From Methanobrevibacter sp. (GTDB taxonomy: Archaea > Methanobacteriota > Methanobacteria > Methanobacteriales > Methanobacteriaceae): DNA of 64,000 nucleotides. The translations under genes and the position numbers were made by a program. The stretch is taken from positions 186,001 to 250,000 of the forward strand of contig NZ_JAUNXR010000002.1 of the NCBI RefSeq assembly GCF_030539665.1, in the 5' to 3' direction. A model generated the notes under the pieces. The model was not told the origin of the DNA. It did no database searches and was given only the letters and a program-made list of their open reading frames with translations. This document shows, one piece after another, positions 1,179 through 42,277 of the stretch (position 1 is its first letter; each line of letters begins with the position of its first letter).

Positions 1179-2045
1179 TTATAAATTCCTGTATTCTCTA
1201 ATTGAAGTATATTCGTCGTCGATTTCTCCATATTCAGACATTTTTTCTCTGTTAGCTTCAGCGTCTAAGTATAAAGAACCTTTACCGTTAAGACCAATGT
1301 CCCCAGTATATTTGATGTATTTTCCTTTGAAGGTTTCTCCATCTACTTCAGGATCTTCTACGATACCGTTGTAAATGAAACCTTCGAGTAATCTACCTAA
1401 TTTACCGTGGATAACGATAGTACCGTTTTTCATTTGTCCACCAGGCCAACGGTTTACGTTACCATCAATTTCGATAATACCTTTGGTCATGTGAATACCA
1501 GCTAAAATATCACAGTCACCTTTGACACGGATTTTACCACCAGTTAAACATTCACCACATTGTTTACCAGCATTACCGTAAACGATGATTTCTCCACCAG
1601 TCATACCTCTCCATTCACCAATGTAAGAAGCACCAGTGAATTCTTTGGTATTTCCAGTAATTTCAAGAGTACCACCAGACATTTCTCTTCCAGCGTGAGC
1701 AGCTGCATTTCCGTATACTTTAATGTGTCCTCCGGACATTTCAGCACCCACGTGAAGGTCTACGCTACCATTACATACAATGTCACCATCAGACATTTTA
1801 CAACCGATGTATTTAACTCTGTTTAAATCTCCGTTGAGAACCATTTTTACATCGCCAGCGCCAGCAGCTTCTCCTTCAACAGTAATGTCAAAGTAATCTG
1901 TAATTGGGAATCTGGAATTTCCAACAGGAACTTCATATTTTGCAAAATCTTCTTCAGTCCAGGTGTAAATTTCATCTGGAATTAACTCATCAAATTCTAA
2001 AGCGATTGAAGAAGTTTTTATTTGATCGAAAGTTATTGTTTTCAA
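1179..2045 (-). CDS. fwdC: Formylmethanofuran dehydrogenase subunit C
   Basis: Subunit of the tungsten/molybdenum formylmethanofuran dehydrogenase, which reduces CO2 and attaches it to methanofuran in the first step of methanogenesis. About 288 residues. The second half is a right-handed beta-helix built from repeats of the form GxxMxGGxIxIxGN, typical of FwdC and of the glutamate synthase C-terminal domain. The TTG at 2045 sits eight bases after a GAGG ribosome site, whereas the GTG at 2054 lies within that site, so TTG is preferred. Last recognised subunit gene of fwdHFGDBAC. Confidence 0.93.
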
Positions 2046-2059
2046 ACTAAACACCTCAT

Positions 2060-3766
2060 TTATCTTTCAACATCTATTCTAATTGGGTTTGATAAGTAGT
2101 GATCATGTACTGGATAGTTTTCCCATTTTACAGAGTAATATTGAGTGAAGAATGGCATGATTTTATCAATTACAGCTTGTTCTTCGTTTTCGTATCCTTT
2201 TACGTTAACCCAAATGTTTTGACTTTCTTTAACTTTTACGATTTCTTTATCTTTTACTAATATTTGACCATCTTTAATAGTGTATAAAGCAGTGTTGAAA
2301 CCTTCTTCAATAGCTGCGTATTCTCTATTAGGATCAATTTCATTAGGGTTTATGTCGTAAACAGCAATGTCAGCTTTGTATCCAGGAGTAAGTGCTCCTC
2401 TGTCAGCAAATCCGTGGATTTTAGCAGGTGCTGCTCTGGAAATAGTTGCAATATCATAGAAGTCGTAAACTCTGTCAAGTTCTGGAAGACCAGTTCTTTT
2501 GTGAGCCCATTTGTGAACTTCGTTGTCCATCATTTCTTGTCTTCTGTCACTACTCATTAACCAGGACATAATTCTTGGGTATCTTATGAATGGACCTGCG
2601 TTAGGGTGGTCAGTAGTTAAACATACTTTCCATGGGTCGTCAATTCTTAAGAACAATTCAAGACCAATAGCCCATTGTAAGGCACTAACTGGAGCTTTTG
2701 GTGCGTAGATACATGGAATGATACCAGCAGCGGTTTCACATTCAATATCTTTGTTAGCCCATTTTAATCCGGATAATTTGAATAAGTCGTATTCCATAGG
2801 TGCGTCTGCAGTCATAGTAGTTGTTTCATCGAGAGTTACTTGACCGATATCACAAGTTACGTGGTCAGCACCGTTAATGTATTTAGCAACTTCTTTTGCA
2901 CCTGAGTCAGCATCTTTCCAGCTGTTTCCACCGTAGGAGTGGAATTGAAGGTGACAAATGTGTACAGTTTGATCCCTGATAGTAGCTTTAGATGATTTTT
3001 TAATGTTTTTAATTGAATCTAAAGTTTCAAGAGTTGTAGGTACGTTTCCAGGGTGTCCTAAATCATTAGGGTGGATGTGGATTGAGTGAGGAAGACCTAA
3101 TTTTTCGTTTGCTTTAGCTAATGCTTGTACAACTTCTTTGGAGGTTACGTCAAAGTATGGTGCTTTGTCATTGTAACCGTGTACGTTCATACCCCAACCC
3201 CATGCTTCACTACCACAAGGGTTTACGATTTTTACACCGTATCCTTTGGATACTTTTAACCATGCAGAGATAAATGCTGCTAAATCTTCAATGTTGTTTT
3301 CTCTTGCATATTCCATTACAAACCAGTTGTTACCGAATAAGGATAATGCTGGAACATCTATGTTAGGAATAGTTGCGATTTCTTCGTGAGTGTGTTTTGC
3401 TTCAAGAGGTGGCATAGCTGCTTCTACAACAGTACCGTAACCTAATCTTGAGTATCTGTAACCAGTTGCAGGACAACTTGGGATAGAGAATCCTGATTCT
3501 GATCTTAAAATTTTAGTTTTTTGGGTTACTCCTCTTCTTGAATCTTCAGGTCTGTATAACCTTCCTACTACTAATTTTGGACCTGCAACGTGAGCGTGAG
3601 GGTCAACTCCAGCTGGCATAACTACTTTGTCAGTTACGTCAATTACTTCAGCATTTGGAGAAACACTGTCGACAATAATGTCATCTTTAATCATTATGTC
3701 CATTTTTTCTCCGTTTATTCCATTAGCTGGATCATAAACAATACCATTTTTAAGTATATACTCCAT
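2060..3766 (-). CDS. fwdA: Formylmethanofuran dehydrogenase subunit A (amidohydrolase)
   Basis: Binuclear zinc amidohydrolase subunit of Fwd that condenses formate with methanofuran. 568 residues, the family length. The metal-binding HxH is at residues 57 and 59, and Lys179 lies where structures of the family show the carboxylated metal-bridging lysine. A histidine-rich strand (HSIHIHPND) and the catalytic aspartate region TTDHPNAGP follow in order. The ATG has a good site (GGTG). Gaps of 8 bases to fwdB and 14 to fwdC indicate one transcript. Confidence 0.96.
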
Positions 3767-3774
3767 TATATCAC

Positions 3775-5151
3775 CTATAATGCGTTTGGATTTGGCACGT
3801 ATTTAGGAGCTACATTTGGCTCCGGCCTGAGTTTCATAACTCTTTCTTTAAGTTCTCTGACAATCCATTCGTCGTCACGACAGGTTTCTGGTTTGTCAAT
3901 AGCTTTTTTCATCCAAATAGGAACTCCGTCCATACGGTAACTTGTTCCTCCACATTCTACCGCAATGAATGAACCTGGTAATACTACATCAGCAAGTTCG
4001 GTGGAAGGTCCCCAGTGGATATCGATTTGAATAACAGGAATGTCAGCTAAGTGTTGGTTTGCTCCGTTAGGGAAGTGAGCACCAGGGTCAGCTGCAATAA
4101 CCATGAAACAGTCTGGTTCTTTTCTGGTTAATAAATCGATAGTGTTGGTTTCTCCTAACATATATCTTGGAGTACCTCTAGCGAAGTCAACACCAAATGC
4201 AAATCCAGTTTCGAAAGCCATGAAAATGTTGAAACCGTTTACGTTAAAGTGACCTCTCATAGGAGTAAGTCCCCATTTACTGTATTTGTTTAAGTCTTGA
4301 ACCATTTTAATTGCAATATCAATGTTTCTTTGTTTTGATAAAGTGTGGGTTAAACCTAAACCGAAGAATAAAACACCGAATTCAGCAGCTTTCATTTCTT
4401 CTACTAATTCGTAAATATCTTCTTTAGGAATTCCAGAAATTACATCTTGGTATAATTCTTTTCCTCTTAATACAGCTCTAATAGCATTGTAGAAACCGTA
4501 GTCCCCGTTTTGTTCGAATCCAATCCATTTGTCAGACATTTTTGCAGTATCTGAGAATTTAGGATCCATGGTAACAACAGTTCTGTCGAATCTTCCTCTT
4601 TGTCTGAAGTATCCACGACAGAATACAGCATAACGTGCCATGTGTCTTGGGTGAGAGTTCATTGCGTTACTTCCAGAGTATGCAACAACATCTGCTCTGT
4701 TTTGAACTTCCCCTAAAGTTTGAATAGGGTAACCTGCGTTTTGAACAGCTTGTAAACTTGGTCCGTGACAGATAGTAGCTTGGTTATCTAATACAGCACC
4801 GATGTATTCACCTAATTCTAAACCTTCTTTCATACATTCGGTGGAAGTTTCAGACCAACCGTAGAATACTGGTCTTACAGAGTTTGCAATGTATTCTGCA
4901 GCTTTATCTAAAGCAGTATCCCAGTCTACTTCCATAAGTTCTCCGTTTTCATCCCTAATCATAGGAACTAATAATCTTTGGTCCATATCTTCCATAATTT
5001 TACTTGCACCTAATCTGCAAGCGTGTCTTACAGCTACAACATGACCATCTTTTACTAAATAATCTAAATCATCACAGTTACATCCACAGAATGCGCATGT
5101 ACAGTTTTCTACAATTTCATCGTAATCTGTTACAGGTGGCTCATAACTCAT
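3775..5151 (-). CDS. fwdB: Formylmethanofuran dehydrogenase subunit B (Mo/W catalytic)
   Basis: Catalytic subunit holding the bis-pyranopterin tungsten or molybdenum site, where CO2 is reduced to formate. Numbering from a TTG at 5157, a [4Fe-4S] set C21-x2-C24-x3-C28 with C47 precedes the metal ligand Cys130 (ATICHGPS). That ligand is an ordinary TGT cysteine, not selenocysteine. I prefer the ATG at 5151 (GGAG ten bases upstream), which overlaps the end of fwdD by 11 bases. Gene order D-B-A-C differs from the D-A-C-B order I recall for Methanothermobacter. Confidence 0.95.
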
Positions 5152-5710
5152 GATCAATCAACTCCTTCCATTTACGTCCTTTATATACTGGTAATTCTCC
5201 TAATGATTCCATGTTTTCAACTACGTCATCATCATCTTCATCGACGTATTTTTTGTAAACCCATCTCATTAAGTCAGCCATGAGTAATACTTTTCTGTCG
5301 GTTTTTTCTACAGTACATTTAATTCCTTTGTAGGTAGGGTCAGAACAACAGTAAGTATCTGGACTTACGATGGTGTTAGCCCAAGGTCCTTTACAAATGA
5401 ATACGGTACCTTCGTGAGGTGCATCTCTTGAAACTGCAGCGTTTAAAACAACTTCACCCCAGTCGGTTTTAACAAGTACAGTATCCCAGTTGTTTACACC
5501 TAATTTTGCCATGTCTCTTGGATCCATGTAACAAGTACCTGAAGCGTTTTTGTATTCTTCTTTTAAGGTTGAACCTCTTTTCTTACAAGCTCCTTGGTAG
5601 ATGTCTGATCCAGTATTTAACATACATTTGAGAACGTCAGTGGTACCTTCTCCAGTAATTTTTACATCTGGTACTACTGGTTTTTCTAAATAAGTATTAG
5701 CGTAATGCAT
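5141..5710 (-). CDS. fwdD: Formylmethanofuran dehydrogenase subunit D
   Basis: Molybdopterin-dinucleotide-binding subunit that caps the catalytic FwdB subunit. The ATG at 5710 (GAGG nine bases upstream) gives 189 residues; reading upstream would overlap fwdG. The beta-barrel core contains [10 protein letters not shown] and [12 protein letters not shown], typical of the family. As I recall, FwdD of Methanothermobacter is about 130 residues, so this copy has an extra C-terminal segment with a DEDDDD acidic patch. It overlaps fwdB by 11 bases. Confidence 0.92.
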
Positions 5711-5721
5711 ATTATCATCCT

Positions 5722-5952
5722 CTATTCTAACCATATAGCGTTTACAGGACAGAACATTTGACATGTTCCACATTCCTCACAGTTTTCGACAGTAAAAAGT
5801 TTAATGAATCCATTTTCTACCATCATGATAACTTCTTCAGTTTTTGCTCCGTTACCACCAGCATTTTCCGGACTGATACGAGCATTTACAGGACATGCGA
5901 TTACACAAACACCGCAACCTAAACAATTATCTTGATTTACTCTAAGTTCCAT
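5722..5952 (-). CDS. fwdG: Formylmethanofuran dehydrogenase subunit G, 2[4Fe-4S] ferredoxin
   Basis: A 76-residue ferredoxin with two complete CxxCxxCxxxC sets: C10, C13, C16, C20 and C58, C61, C64, C68. It passes electrons between the polyferredoxin FwdF and the catalytic subunits. The two cluster motifs are separated by an unusually long 37-residue spacer, expected for this subunit. AGGTG precedes the ATG. It lies 8 bases after fwdF and 11 before fwdD. Confidence 0.93.
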
Positions 5953-5960
5953 CTTATCAC

Positions 5961-7052
5961 CTAGTTTTTAAGTGCGTTAATAGCATCAATCCAAGTTTCG
6001 GATTTAGTAGGAGTACAGTTTACACCAGTTCTTGTTACAGTAATAGCGCCGTTTGGACAACCATTAGCACAAGCACCACAGCTAATACAGTATTCTTTTT
6101 TAACAGACATGTGTTCTAATCTGTCACCTGGTTCTTTGGAAACAGGGAATGCTAATGCATCACATGGACAAATATCTACACAAGCACCACAGGTTTGACA
6201 TAATTCTTGGTCAATGTTAATGTCTCCTTCAAATGGTTTAGAATGAGTTGCTGCTCCGGTAGGACAGACACCTTGACACCATCCACAGTATACACAAACG
6301 GTTTCATCTATAATGGAGTTACCTTTTGTAACTGCTTTTGCTGGGTCAATATCATATTCACCGTAGGAACAAGATCTACATACTGCTTTAATAGCTTTTT
6401 CAGGACAAACTTTTTTACAGATAAGACAGTAAACACATTTGTCTTTGTCTATTACGATAGATTCTTCACCGGTAACAGGGTCTACGGTAATTGCTTCAGC
6501 AGGACACATTTCTTCACAAATACCACAGTAAATACATTTTTCATCATCTACTGAAATTTCACCAGATACTAAGTCTCTACGTACTGGTAATTCTCTTTCG
6601 ATGGTGATTGCGTCACGAGGACATGCAATTTCACATTTTTCACAGTAAATACATTCATCATCATCAATAGCGGAATAGCTAGTGTAATGAGGATATGCTT
6701 CAATTTCACTGATTGGAACTCCGTCAATGGTTAATTGTAATGCTCCAACAGGACAAACTCCACTACACATACCACAGAGAACACATTTGTCTTCGTTGAT
6801 GTTTAATTTTTCAGCATCAATATCTGCTATGATGTTTTGTGCGATTTTTTCATGACCACTGAAATAGGTGTTGATTCTACGACGAGCGTTAGTAGCAATC
6901 GCATTTAAGTCAATAGCACCAACAGGACAAGTTGATTCACAAAGACCGCAACCAATACAAATATGATTTTTAAAAGACAAATCTCTGATTTCCTCTGATG
7001 ACCTAGTTATTTTAAAGTCATTGCCTTTAACATCTTTTATATTATTGATCAT
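5961..7052 (-). CDS. fwdF: Polyferredoxin subunit F of formylmethanofuran dehydrogenase
   Basis: Polyferredoxin of 363 residues with eight CxxCxxCxxxCP cluster motifs, enough for eight [4Fe-4S] centres, forming the electron wire that feeds Fwd. Two additional cysteines (CRSC) lie between the fifth and sixth motifs. The ATG at 7052 is one base after the fwdH stop, with the GGAG inside the end of fwdH, so translation is coupled; a longer frame upstream would overlap fwdH and is rejected. Confidence 0.94.
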   Translation of the reverse strand: MINNIKDVKGNDFKITRSSEEIRDLSFKNHICIGCGLCESTCPVGAIDLNAIATNARRRINTYFSGHEKIAQNIIADIDAEKLNINEDKCVLCGMCSGVCPVGALQLTIDGVPISEIEAYPHYTSYSAIDDDECIYCEKCEIACPRDAITIERELPVRRDLVSGEISVDDEKCIYCGICEEMCPAEAITVDPVTGEESIVIDKDKCVYCLICKKVCPEKAIKAVCRSCSYGEYDIDPAKAVTKGNSIIDETVCVYCGWCQGVCPTGAATHSKPFEGDINIDQELCQTCGACVDICPCDALAFPVSKEPGDRLEHMSVKKEYCISCGACANGCPNGAITVTRTGVNCTPTKSETWIDAINALKN

Positions 7053-7053
7053 T

Positions 7054-7503
7054 TTAAATCTCCAAAATTTTAATTGAGTTTGTTGGGCACTCATCTACAC
7101 ATAGATTACATCCACAACAATCACTGGAGTCTATTTGAGCTTTAAGAGATTCTAATTTAATAGAATTCATAAAACACAAATTTACACACAATCCACAGCC
7201 AATACAAGTATTGCCTATATGTCCTTCAAATTGTTTATCTTGACATATTTTAACAATTTTACGACATTTTTCCGGTTCATCAAAAAGAACTTGGGACATT
7301 GATAAAAAATCTGCAGGAGTTAATTCTGTAATTGTTTTAGCAACATCTATAGAATTCCATGATAAGTTTCGACCATTCAAATAATGAGAAACAGTAGACC
7401 TATCAATACCTAACTCATCAGCTATATGCTGCTGACTTTTACCTTGTTCTTTTAACTTGACTGCCGCCAAGTATTTTAAACCAGATGCAATATGTTTTGG
7501 CAT
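7054..7503 (-). CDS. fwdH: HTH-ferredoxin protein, first gene of the fwd operon (FwdH-like)
   Basis: A 149-residue two-part protein. Residues 11-46 form a helix-turn-helix of the Xre/Cro type (SQQHIADELGIDRSTVSHYL). Residues 100-139 carry two [4Fe-4S] sets: C100, C103, C106, C110 and C129, C132, C135, C139; the first lacks the usual proline after its fourth cysteine. I chose the ATG at 7503 because GGTGG lies five bases upstream. The symbol follows gene order and may cover a regulator rather than a structural subunit. The 19-base palindrome at 7514-7532 lies just upstream. Confidence 0.8.
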   Translation of the reverse strand: MPKHIASGLKYLAAVKLKEQGKSQQHIADELGIDRSTVSHYLNGRNLSWNSIDVAKTITELTPADFLSMSQVLFDEPEKCRKIVKICQDKQFEGHIGNTCIGCGLCVNLCFMNSIKLESLKAQIDSSDCCGCNLCVDECPTNSIKILEI

Positions 7504-7513
7504 TTCATCCACC

Positions 7514-7532
7514 ATGTGTAATATATACACAT
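7514..7532. promoter_or_regulatory. Palindromic operator at the fwd start
   Basis: Perfect palindrome ATGTGTA-ATATA-TACACAT ending 11 bases upstream of the fwdH ATG. A plausible TATA element (TTTATTAATA read on the minus strand) lies at about 7543-7552, which puts the predicted transcription start inside the palindrome. That position would suit repression. Two related sites lie at 7591-7609 and 7837-7855. Confidence 0.7.
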
Positions 7533-7590
7533 ATGTTTCCTATTAATAAATACTTGTTGTCTAGAATTAAATAGAAAGACATATATATTA

Positions 7591-7609
7591 TTGTGTTGTA
7601 TCTACACTT
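7591..7609. promoter_or_regulatory. Degenerate copy of the fwd/mobB operator
   Basis: TTGTGTT-GTATC-TACACTT matches ATGTGTA-N5-TACACAT at 11 of the 14 arm positions with the same five-base centre. It lies upstream of the putative fwd TATA element in the fwd/mobB divergent region. Confidence 0.45.
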
Positions 7610-7836
7610 TTTAAAAAAATTTTATGGGTTAAAACAACCAATAGAAACTAAAAACAGTTATTAATAAATATTAAATTAAAACAAGTTCAATTAAAACTAA
7701 TATAGTAATATGCATGATTATAAGTCCTTGAAATTACTATTTTTTAAGAAAAATGGGAAAATTTAGTAATAAAATATAGGTAAAAAAGTAATACAAAAAT
7801 GGCCTTTTTCAAGGAAAATTTTTAAGTTTGCCTAAA

Positions 7837-7855
7837 ATGTGTAGTTACTACACAT
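7837..7855. promoter_or_regulatory. Palindromic operator on the mobB side
   Basis: Perfect palindrome ATGTGTA-GTTAC-TACACAT, with arms identical to those of the site at 7514-7532 and the same spacing. It ends 70 bases before the mobB ATG and about 15 bases before a TATA-like stretch (TTAAATATA near 7870). The rest of 7533-7925 is AT-rich with no gene that I can see. Confidence 0.7.
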
Positions 7856-7925
7856 CATAAAACACCAAATTAAATATAATACAAAATACATATTATTAAT
7901 TAACACATTAAAGGAGCTAAACATC

Positions 7926-8642
7926 ATGCAAATAGTTTCAGTTGTTGGTAAAAAAAATAGTGGCAAAACCTCATTGACTATAAAACTTATAGAAGCTCTA
8001 AGAAAAAGGGGTTATAAAGTAGCCACTATAAAACATTCACATCACACAATGGAAATGGACAAAGAAAATACTGATACCTGGAGACACAAGCAAGCAGGAT
8101 CACAACTAGTAGTTGGAATTGGATCCACCACATTTTTCAATGTGCAGAATATCCTGGATTTGGACAGGCTACTGTTTCTAATTGAAGTGATGGATGATGT
8201 GGATTTTGTTGTAATTGAAGGGTTTAAAAACTACAACTATCCAAAAATAGCCACATCACCAAATGTTGTTGATGAATACACAATAACAGAAGTTAATTCA
8301 TTTGAAATAACACCTGAAGAAATAGAAGAATTAATTGACCTTATTGAACAAAAAGGTTATGGAATTGTAAATACCCTTTACAATGACGAATGCGGATACA
8401 ATGACGGGGATTCCATTGCAAAAGAAATAATAAAAGGAAACGTATCCCTCGATGAATTGGATTCAGTGGATGTGGCGCTATCCGTAGACGGCAAAGTGGT
8501 AGGACTTAACGAATTTGTAAGTGATTTTATAAAACAAACATTTCTCGGCATGCTTAAAACCTTAAACATAGAAAACTTCGGTGCAAAAGATTTAAATAAA
8601 GTGGAGTTACTAATAAGAAATACAAATCATGGAGATGATTAA
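7926..8642 (+). CDS. mobB: Molybdopterin-guanine dinucleotide biosynthesis protein MobB with extra C-terminal module
   Basis: P-loop GTPase that supports attachment of GMP to molybdopterin, the cofactor form used by Fwd and Fdh. The Walker A motif GKKNSGKTS is at residues 8-16, followed by IKHSHH and the conserved VVIEGFKNY strand near residue 100. After about residue 180 there is a separate module (GLNEFVSDF...LGMLKTLN) that recurs twice in the next protein. AAAGGAG lies 8 bases before the ATG. First gene of the plus-strand unit divergent from fwd. Confidence 0.9.
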   Translation: MQIVSVVGKKNSGKTSLTIKLIEALRKRGYKVATIKHSHHTMEMDKENTDTWRHKQAGSQLVVGIGSTTFFNVQNILDLDRLLFLIEVMDDVDFVVIEGFKNYNYPKIATSPNVVDEYTITEVNSFEITPEEIEELIDLIEQKGYGIVNTLYNDECGYNDGDSIAKEIIKGNVSLDELDSVDVALSVDGKVVGLNEFVSDFIKQTFLGMLKTLNIENFGAKDLNKVELLIRNTNHGDD

Positions 8643-8643
8643 C

Positions 8644-9003
8644 ATGCATTCAGATTATGTAAATGATGGAATTGAATTATTAGTAAACAATACTGAAATC
8701 GGTTTAAATGAATTTGCAAGTAGCTTTTTAAAAGACAGCTTATTTGGAATGATCAGTGCTTTAAACACTGAAGAATATGACATTAGCTCAATTGAAAAAG
8801 CTACCATTGAAATCGAAAAAATAAACCCTGAACATATGAATAGAGCAGAAATTGCTTTAACAGTCAATGAAAAAGCTATCGGCATTAACGAATTTGTAAG
8901 TGGAATAATGAAAGAGTCCATTTATGGAATGGTAAAAGCATTAAACACTGAAAAATTTGGAATCGATGCTATAGAAAACATTGATATAAAAATTGAAAAA
9001 TGA
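8644..9003 (+). CDS. Small protein of two MobB C-terminal-type repeats
   Basis: A 119-residue soluble protein made almost entirely of two copies (about residues 9-58 and 69-117) of the module at the end of MobB. Each copy has a strand (LxVNxxxIG), the signature NEFxSxxxK, an (F/Y)GM(I/V)xALNTE helix and a closing strand of alternating isoleucines. The ATG at 8644 follows the GGAG at 8631; an ATG at 8629 in frame is possible. Placement between mobB and moaA suggests a role in molybdopterin cofactor making or delivery; the biochemical function is unknown. Confidence 0.75.
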
Positions 9004-9007
9004 TTTT

Positions 9008-9934
9008 ATGAAACCCATTAAAGACCAATATCAAAGGCCAATTATCTCTTTACGAATAACAATAACCAATTTATGCAATGTAAACTGCATATACTGCCAT
9101 CATGATGGAATGGAATATTCTAAAGATGAAATGACATCAGATGAGATATATGAAATATGTAAAATTGCTAAAAATATAGGTGTTAAAAAGATAAGACTTT
9201 CAGGCGGTGAACCTTTAGTTAGAAAAGATATTGTTGAAATAGTAGAAAAAATATCTACATTAGGCTTTAAAGACATATCTTTAACAACAAACGGTGTCTT
9301 ACTTGAGAAATATAGTGAAGATTTGAAGAAAGCAGGCCTTCACCGTATCAATGTAAGTTTAGATACTTTAAATCCGGAAACTTATAAATTTATCACCAAA
9401 AAAGACTATCTTGAAAAAGTTAAAAGAGGATTGATAAAAGCCGTTGATGCTGGTCTTTACCCTGTTAAAATAAATATGGTTTTGATGAAAGGCATTAACG
9501 AAGATGAAGTAGAAGAAATGTTTGAATTTACAAAAAAACATGGCATGATACTTCAGTTAATAGAGCTTGTAGATAGTGAAAACTGCGAAGATGACAAGTT
9601 TAGTGAAGAATATCATTACAGTCTAGAACCTCTTGAAGATGAATTAGCTGAAAAAGCTGATGAAGTCGTAACAAGAGAATTTATGCAAAGCCGTAAAAAA
9701 TACTATATTGACGGTGGAGAAATAGAAGTTGTAAAGCCGATGGACAATACAGAATTCTGCAAAAATTGTACCAGACTTAGAATTACTCCCGACGGTAAAA
9801 TCAAACCATGTTTACTTAGAAATGACAATTTAGTTGATTTGGTGTCATATATCCGTAATGGTGATGGCGAAGATCAATTAAAAGAAAGATTCCTTATAGG
9901 AATAAACAATAGAAAACCATTCAATATGGAATAG
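9008..9934 (+). CDS. moaA: GTP 3',8-cyclase MoaA
   Basis: Radical SAM enzyme that converts GTP to the cyclic precursor in the first step of molybdopterin synthesis; MoaC, encoded at 50504-50971, performs the next step. From the ATG at 9008 it is 308 residues. The SAM cluster motif is C23-x3-C27-x2-C30, followed by the SGGEPLVR strand. A second C-terminal cluster set ([14 protein letters not shown]...C) binds the substrate. Upstream start codons would lie inside the preceding gene; no strong ribosome site is visible. Confidence 0.93.
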
Positions 9935-42119: not shown

Positions 42120-42277
42120 TTTATCACCTACGAAAAAAAAGGTATAATAAAACCTCAAAAAAAGTTATTTTTTTTATATTTGTAAAACATCATATATAAA
42201 TTTTAGGCATTCCTAAATTGAAATTATAAAATTTAATATAATAAAAAATTTTTATAAATTAACAAAGGAGTGATAAA

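Follow-up and report, generated by a model that had tools for sequence, protein, structure and literature searches.

Formylmethanofuran dehydrogenase captures CO2 as the first enzyme of methane formation, and the Methanobacteriales include the main methanogens of the rumen and the human gut. Among described regulators, Tfx is an HTH protein encoded beside the Methanothermobacter fmd operon, and it binds downstream of the promoter (PMC3087415). The tungsten formylmethanofuran dehydrogenase of Methanothermobacter has been described as constitutive (PMC3087415), and in M. ruminantium fwdA was more than twofold higher in co-culture with a bacterium that forms H2 than in monoculture on H2/CO2 (PMC2812497). 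Two further systems bear on the present locus: C.Esp1396I uses three operators to control both its own gene and a second promoter (PMC4041747), and MsvR is described as a redox-responsive transcription regulator of methanogens that is modulated through cysteine residues (PMC3729527). In the literature searched, no regulator or operator was found for the tungsten-type formylmethanofuran dehydrogenase of Methanobacteriales.

The locus studied here resembles that of Tfx in that its first gene product, FwdH, likewise has an HTH and is encoded at a formylmethanofuran dehydrogenase operon. FwdH nevertheless belongs to a different protein family, and no ferredoxin domain has been described for Tfx.

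Palindromes in the fwdH-mobB Intergenic Region

The window, that is, the whole stretch of 64,000 nucleotides analysed, carries on its reverse strand the candidate regulator gene fwdH (7054..7503), for which Pfam reports an XRE-type HTH and a 2[4Fe-4S] ferredoxin, followed by the rest of the operon in the order fwdF, fwdG, fwdD, fwdB, fwdA and fwdC (1179..7052, reverse strand, from ORFs and Pfam). The fwdH start ATG (7503-7501) is kept in all relatives fetched but one, and fwdF lies directly 3′ of fwdH wherever this was tested. On the forward strand, in divergent orientation, lie the Mo/W-cofactor genes mobB and moaA with an unnamed ORF between them (7926..9934; Pfam MobB 1.2e-32, Radical_SAM and Mob_synth_C). 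This middle ORF (8460-9003) had no Pfam match and is built of two repeats similar to the C-terminal portion of MobB (…GLNEFVSDFIKQTFLGMLKTLN…). MobB itself is longer in some relatives, reaching about 340 aa.

Three copies of the palindrome ATGTGTA-N5-TACACAT, with the 12-base core TGTGTA-N5-TACACA, had been reported between the divergent genes, and our recomputation returned the same three. The proximal candidate operator (ATGTGTATATATTACACAT, 7514..7532, reverse strand) is a perfect palindrome that adjoins the fwdH Shine-Dalgarno sequence GGTGG (7513-7509). The middle candidate operator (7591..7609, reverse strand) agrees at 11 of 14 arm positions and adjoins the BRE/TATA of fwdH. The distal one (ATGTGTAGTTACTACACAT, 7837..7855, forward strand), again perfect, is common to mobB and, from far upstream, to fwdH. 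Only 2 copies of the exact core exist in the 1.62-Mb genome, both of them in the fwdH-mobB region, and the reversed control pattern has none. When up to three mismatches were allowed, 5 matches were found in the 64-kb window versus 5.27 expected by chance, so that the third copy (7591-7609) is not significant alone; it is credible because its position is conserved across relatives.

The main TATA box of fwdH, TAATATATATG (7580..7590, reverse strand), was read from the sequence and coincides with a TATATA consensus at this position in 93 loci. A possible second TATA, TATTTATTAATA (7541..7552, reverse strand), also read from the sequence, would have its start site within the proximal operator. 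The first-pass annotation had set one palindrome at the probable fwd transcription start, a placement that we refine: since the proximal site adjoins GGTGG and the ATG at 7503-7501 is the start codon, this site would lie in the 5′ leader or at the second start site, whereas it is the middle site that adjoins the main TATA box. Its placement of one palindrome upstream of the mobB TATA agrees with our reading, in which the distal site lies 70 bases before the mobB start and precedes the TATA-like TTAAATATAA (7870..7879, forward strand), the probable mobB TATA box.

As the proximal palindrome belongs to the leader and can base-pair beside GGTGG, we also considered whether it acts as an RNA hairpin masking the Shine-Dalgarno sequence. 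This is highly improbable, given that the predicted fold is not unusual (z of −1.1 and −1.5), that one arm is lost in many relatives, and that the same sequence recurs upstream of a TATA box, where it is not transcribed by that promoter.

Conservation and Genome-Wide Specificity of the Sites

Conservation was assessed in 98 loci of the class (95 for the distal site) with a criterion of at most two core mismatches. Sites satisfying it were present about 28 bases before the fwdH start in 61 of 98 loci (proximal), about 106 bases before it in 79 of 98 (middle), and about 352 bases before it in 62 of 95 (distal), compared to 3 of 1663 control windows. Where both are distinct, the proximal and middle sites stand 77-80 bases apart, and in a locus with extra leader sequence (L072) the two sites lie at −299 and −220 with a 79-base spacing retained. 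In the Methanothermobacter group both proximal arms are changed together, to TGTGTG/CACACA. One arm of the proximal site is lost in about a third of the loci, so the complete set of three is not required in every locus. The first-pass annotation had asked whether the motif might be unconserved in relatives, or scattered at random positions with no link to Mo/W genes; neither was the case, and the alignment of relatives placed it at fixed positions and in association with fwd and, in some lineages, with Mo/W-cofactor genes as well. As computed, the sites are a real, class-wide set of candidate operators before the fwd genes of the order Methanobacteriales.

The distance between the middle and distal sites within the genus of the window is 244-248 bases in 38 of 42 loci and 256-257 bases in the other 4, values suggestive of helical phasing. 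DNA looping is nevertheless not claimed, since in other genera the distance ranges from about 244 to 305 bases with no single phase. Between these two sites, a spacer element at 7765-7800, roughly TAATAC-N14-18-TATTAC, is conserved in the genus of the window. In loci L183 and L190, of the Methanothermobacter group and family f2, a gene for a formate-dehydrogenase-like molybdopterin enzyme ends at about −100 upstream of fwdH, and the middle operator overlaps or adjoins its 3′ end.

A search of 120 genomes of the family gave 118 exact core matches versus 21 for the reversed control. At least 105 of the 118 belong to fwd/mobB loci: 100 in fetched loci, one at the displaced mobB of genome G052, two beside mobB in G118, and two in G080, a pair that we assign to the locus from its fitting distance of 282 bases. 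The exact sites examined elsewhere fell within coding sequence or had unrelated genes as neighbours. A wider regulon in the genome of the window was considered and rejected, as 5 of 6 one-mismatch and 7 of 7 two-mismatch sites examined are inside ORFs. Two related genomes share a one-mismatch site ahead of a gene that, as read from the sequence, is grpE-like. Separately, TGTGTATAACTTACACA recurs in several genomes of the genus (L196, L197, L200 and L252) near a gene of von Willebrand type (‘VMDRSGSM’) and a small HTH-like gene, an arrangement that is probably unrelated to fwd.

Features and Distribution of FwdH

The first-pass annotation had treated fwdH as an enzyme gene. This could not be maintained, as Pfam gives its product an HTH-ferredoxin architecture, with the HTH seen in the structural model too, which makes it the obvious candidate regulator. 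FwdH has 149 aa, with matches to HTH_3 (1.4e-06; 28.7 bits versus a cut-off of 23) and, in two stretches, to Fer4 (2.5e-09). The RST.SHYLNGRN stretch of the HTH is invariant across the class, as are, in the class sample, the eight cysteines of two CxxCxxCxxxC motifs and one further cysteine. The model shows a five-helix HTH region whose helices are predicted with high confidence, and a ferredoxin part of low confidence. A fold search against solved structures gave no match below E 0.001 and a weak resemblance to lambda cI and C.Esp1396I, which were also the best natural sequence matches among solved proteins, again weak (E 0.021 and 0.29, respectively).

No FwdH chain was found in the solved Fwd structures, which do contain FwdF and FwdG chains, and a query from the Methanothermobacter group gave the same result. 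FwdH-type proteins occur in 85 of 120 family genomes and in 112 of 152 genomes of the class and, among the matches listed, full-length ones are confined to Methanobacteriales. With an HTH of its own and no chain in the solved structures, FwdH is probably not a core Fwd subunit but a regulator. As an XRE-type HTH protein whose gene lies next to the genome's only exact sites, it is also the most economical candidate for the protein that binds them.

The palindromes could instead be operators of another, unlinked factor, FwdH being just an accessory electron-transfer protein of Fwd with an HTH-like domain. The literature does call FwdH a subunit (PMC3087415), linkage of a gene to sites is no proof of binding, and regulators can be unlinked. 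We regard this reading as unlikely, since the exact site stands at no other gene of the genome and the near matches examined are almost all inside ORFs, while the HTH stretch does not vary within the class, solved structures include no FwdH, and this genome lacks Tfx. As for control by Tfx itself, this candidate was dropped because the TFX_C domain had no match in this genome in a search that gave matches in two control genomes.

Loss of FwdH in One Genus

One genus, g3, which we take to be Methanosphaera (as we presume f3 to be Methanothermobacter and f4 Methanothermus), differs from the rest. Methanosphaera stadtmanae forms methane from methanol and hydrogen. Among 20 genomes of genus g3, FwdB was present in 19 and no FwdH was reported. 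The eight g3 loci fetched retain fwdG, fwdD and fwdB; FwdH is missing from them, FwdF is not seen at its operon position, and none has a convincing site. Six other FwdH-less genomes had no FwdB match either. In the genomes compared, FwdH and the sites occur together and are lost together. The co-loss in g3 takes in FwdF and cofactor genes too, so it should be counted as one event with several losses.

Cofactor Genes and an Iron-Type Box

In the genus of the window, the distal site mostly stands some 60-70 bases ahead of mobB. Loci in which mobB has been moved away from fwdH (L049, L050, L055, L057, L058 and L195) have separate sites near mobB and near fwdH. Three of these loci, of Methanobrevibacter type (L049, L050 and L055), have a polyferredoxin gene of about 338 aa inserted between mobB and fwdH, its product in L050 having seven Fer4 motifs. 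In L068, from another genus, it is moeA, likewise a Mo-cofactor gene, that diverges and has a site. Genera with a tandem, non-divergent mobB-moaA have no site with up to two mismatches near mobB, and their fwdH sites are kept; a distal site or site pair also persists at about −350 to −410 where no divergent cofactor gene exists. Hence the earlier proposal of a single site type for fwd and the cofactor genes holds for mobB-moaA in the genus of the window and for moeA in another, but it is not general: the cofactor link is lineage-specific. Since the fwdH sites stay in place without a cofactor gene, the core target would be fwdH itself, with cofactor genes added in some lineages.

Directly beside the distal operator lies a DtxR-type iron box, TTTAAGTTTGCCTAAA (7821..7836, forward strand), with one mismatch to TTTAGG-N4-CCTAAA. 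With up to two mismatches allowed, 52 of 65 loci had such a box next to the distal site, usually at a distance of 1-4 bases, compared to 1 of 195 control windows. The genome has ten exact copies of the motif at five places, two feoB genes included; an exact copy at 42202-42217 lies between a lysA-like and a NUDIX gene. A one-mismatch box is located 61 bases before a DtxR-family gene (Fe_dep_repress and Fe_dep_repr_C domains). Judged from these sequences, iron control of the promoter that has the distal site is likely.

These data bear on the balance of enzyme against cofactor put forward in the first-pass annotation, considered here as the main purpose of the sites and with molybdenum or tungsten as the signal. 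Some genera do share a site between fwd and mobB-moaA or moeA, and a relative does have Tfx-type metal control of the molybdenum enzyme (PMC3087415). We nonetheless find it improbable, somewhat more so than an unlinked factor, as several genera keep the fwdH sites while mobB has none, FwdH has iron-sulphur motifs only and no known molybdate or tungstate domain, and the box beside the distal site is of the iron type and not a known Mo/W box. The reported constitutive nature of the tungsten enzyme (PMC3087415) also counts against a simple metal response, and against FwdH operators as well.

Discussion

Taken together, we consider it probable that the palindromes are operators of FwdH, which would use them for autoregulation and, in the genus of the window, for control of mobB-moaA, in response to an electron or cluster signal and in combination with the DtxR box. 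From the computed sites, their conservation, the protein architecture and the joint occurrence and loss, we infer FwdH as the binding protein, its sign of regulation, what it senses and the part played by the iron regulator. Weighing against this reading are the arm missing from many proximal sites, the weak HTH matches among solved structures, the low-confidence ferredoxin part of the model, the several losses that come together in g3 and the constitutive description of the tungsten enzyme. In this proposal FwdH, an XRE/lambda-repressor-type DNA-binding protein with a 2[4Fe-4S] ferredoxin tail and presumably a dimer, would control its own operon from the proximal site, in the leader beside the ribosome-binding site, and from the middle site, against the BRE/TATA. 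Sites in the leader and adjoining the BRE/TATA suit repression, and a site upstream of a TATA may also activate; negative autoregulation is thus the most likely action, with an activating role at low occupancy as a possibility. The opposite signs suggested in the first-pass annotation, repression on one side and perhaps activation on the other, are conjecture. Through the distal site, control by FwdH would be extended to mobB-moaA in this genus, and a DtxR-type iron regulator would probably act at the adjacent box. The ferredoxin tail would probably report electron supply or cluster status; the amount of formylmethanofuran dehydrogenase, a consumer of ferredoxin-level electrons, could in this way be matched to the supply. 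The rise of M. ruminantium fwdA in co-culture (PMC2812497) favors dynamic control.

A more specific version, which we put forward tentatively and hold to be somewhat less than evenly probable, makes FwdH an electron-supply sensor whose clusters read the ferredoxin pool, or cluster/iron sufficiency, and set the production of Fwd and, in gut methanogens, of the Mo/W cofactor, together with the iron regulator. If true, this would amount to a transcriptional control system devoted to the first step of methanogenesis in Methanobacteriales, exerted by a protein annotated as an Fwd subunit and here suggested to be a regulator. The candidate regulator now has a name, and its presumed 19-base sites have spacings that hold across relatives; together with the loss seen in one genus, this opens the control of CO2 entry into methanogenesis to direct test.

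As regards known systems, the ‘subunit H’ of the tungsten enzyme (fwdHFGDACB) has the same operon position as the fwdH described here, a label with which the HTH and the absence from solved structures do not sit well. The DtxR-family iron repressors offer a second comparison, as the same TTTAGG-N4-CCTAAA motif is found near two feoB genes and before a DtxR-family gene, but their box would be the site of a second regulator, distinct from the palindrome. Finally, FwdH is like lambda cI and C.Esp1396I in being a small XRE-type HTH protein with two-fold operators of 17-19 bases and a gene beside its putative operators, and it is unlike them in having a ferredoxin domain and in being an archaeal protein that would face a TATA/TFB machinery; the sequence similarity is weak. 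We use the parallel with C.Esp1396I, which does not prove kinship, as a working analogy for FwdH.
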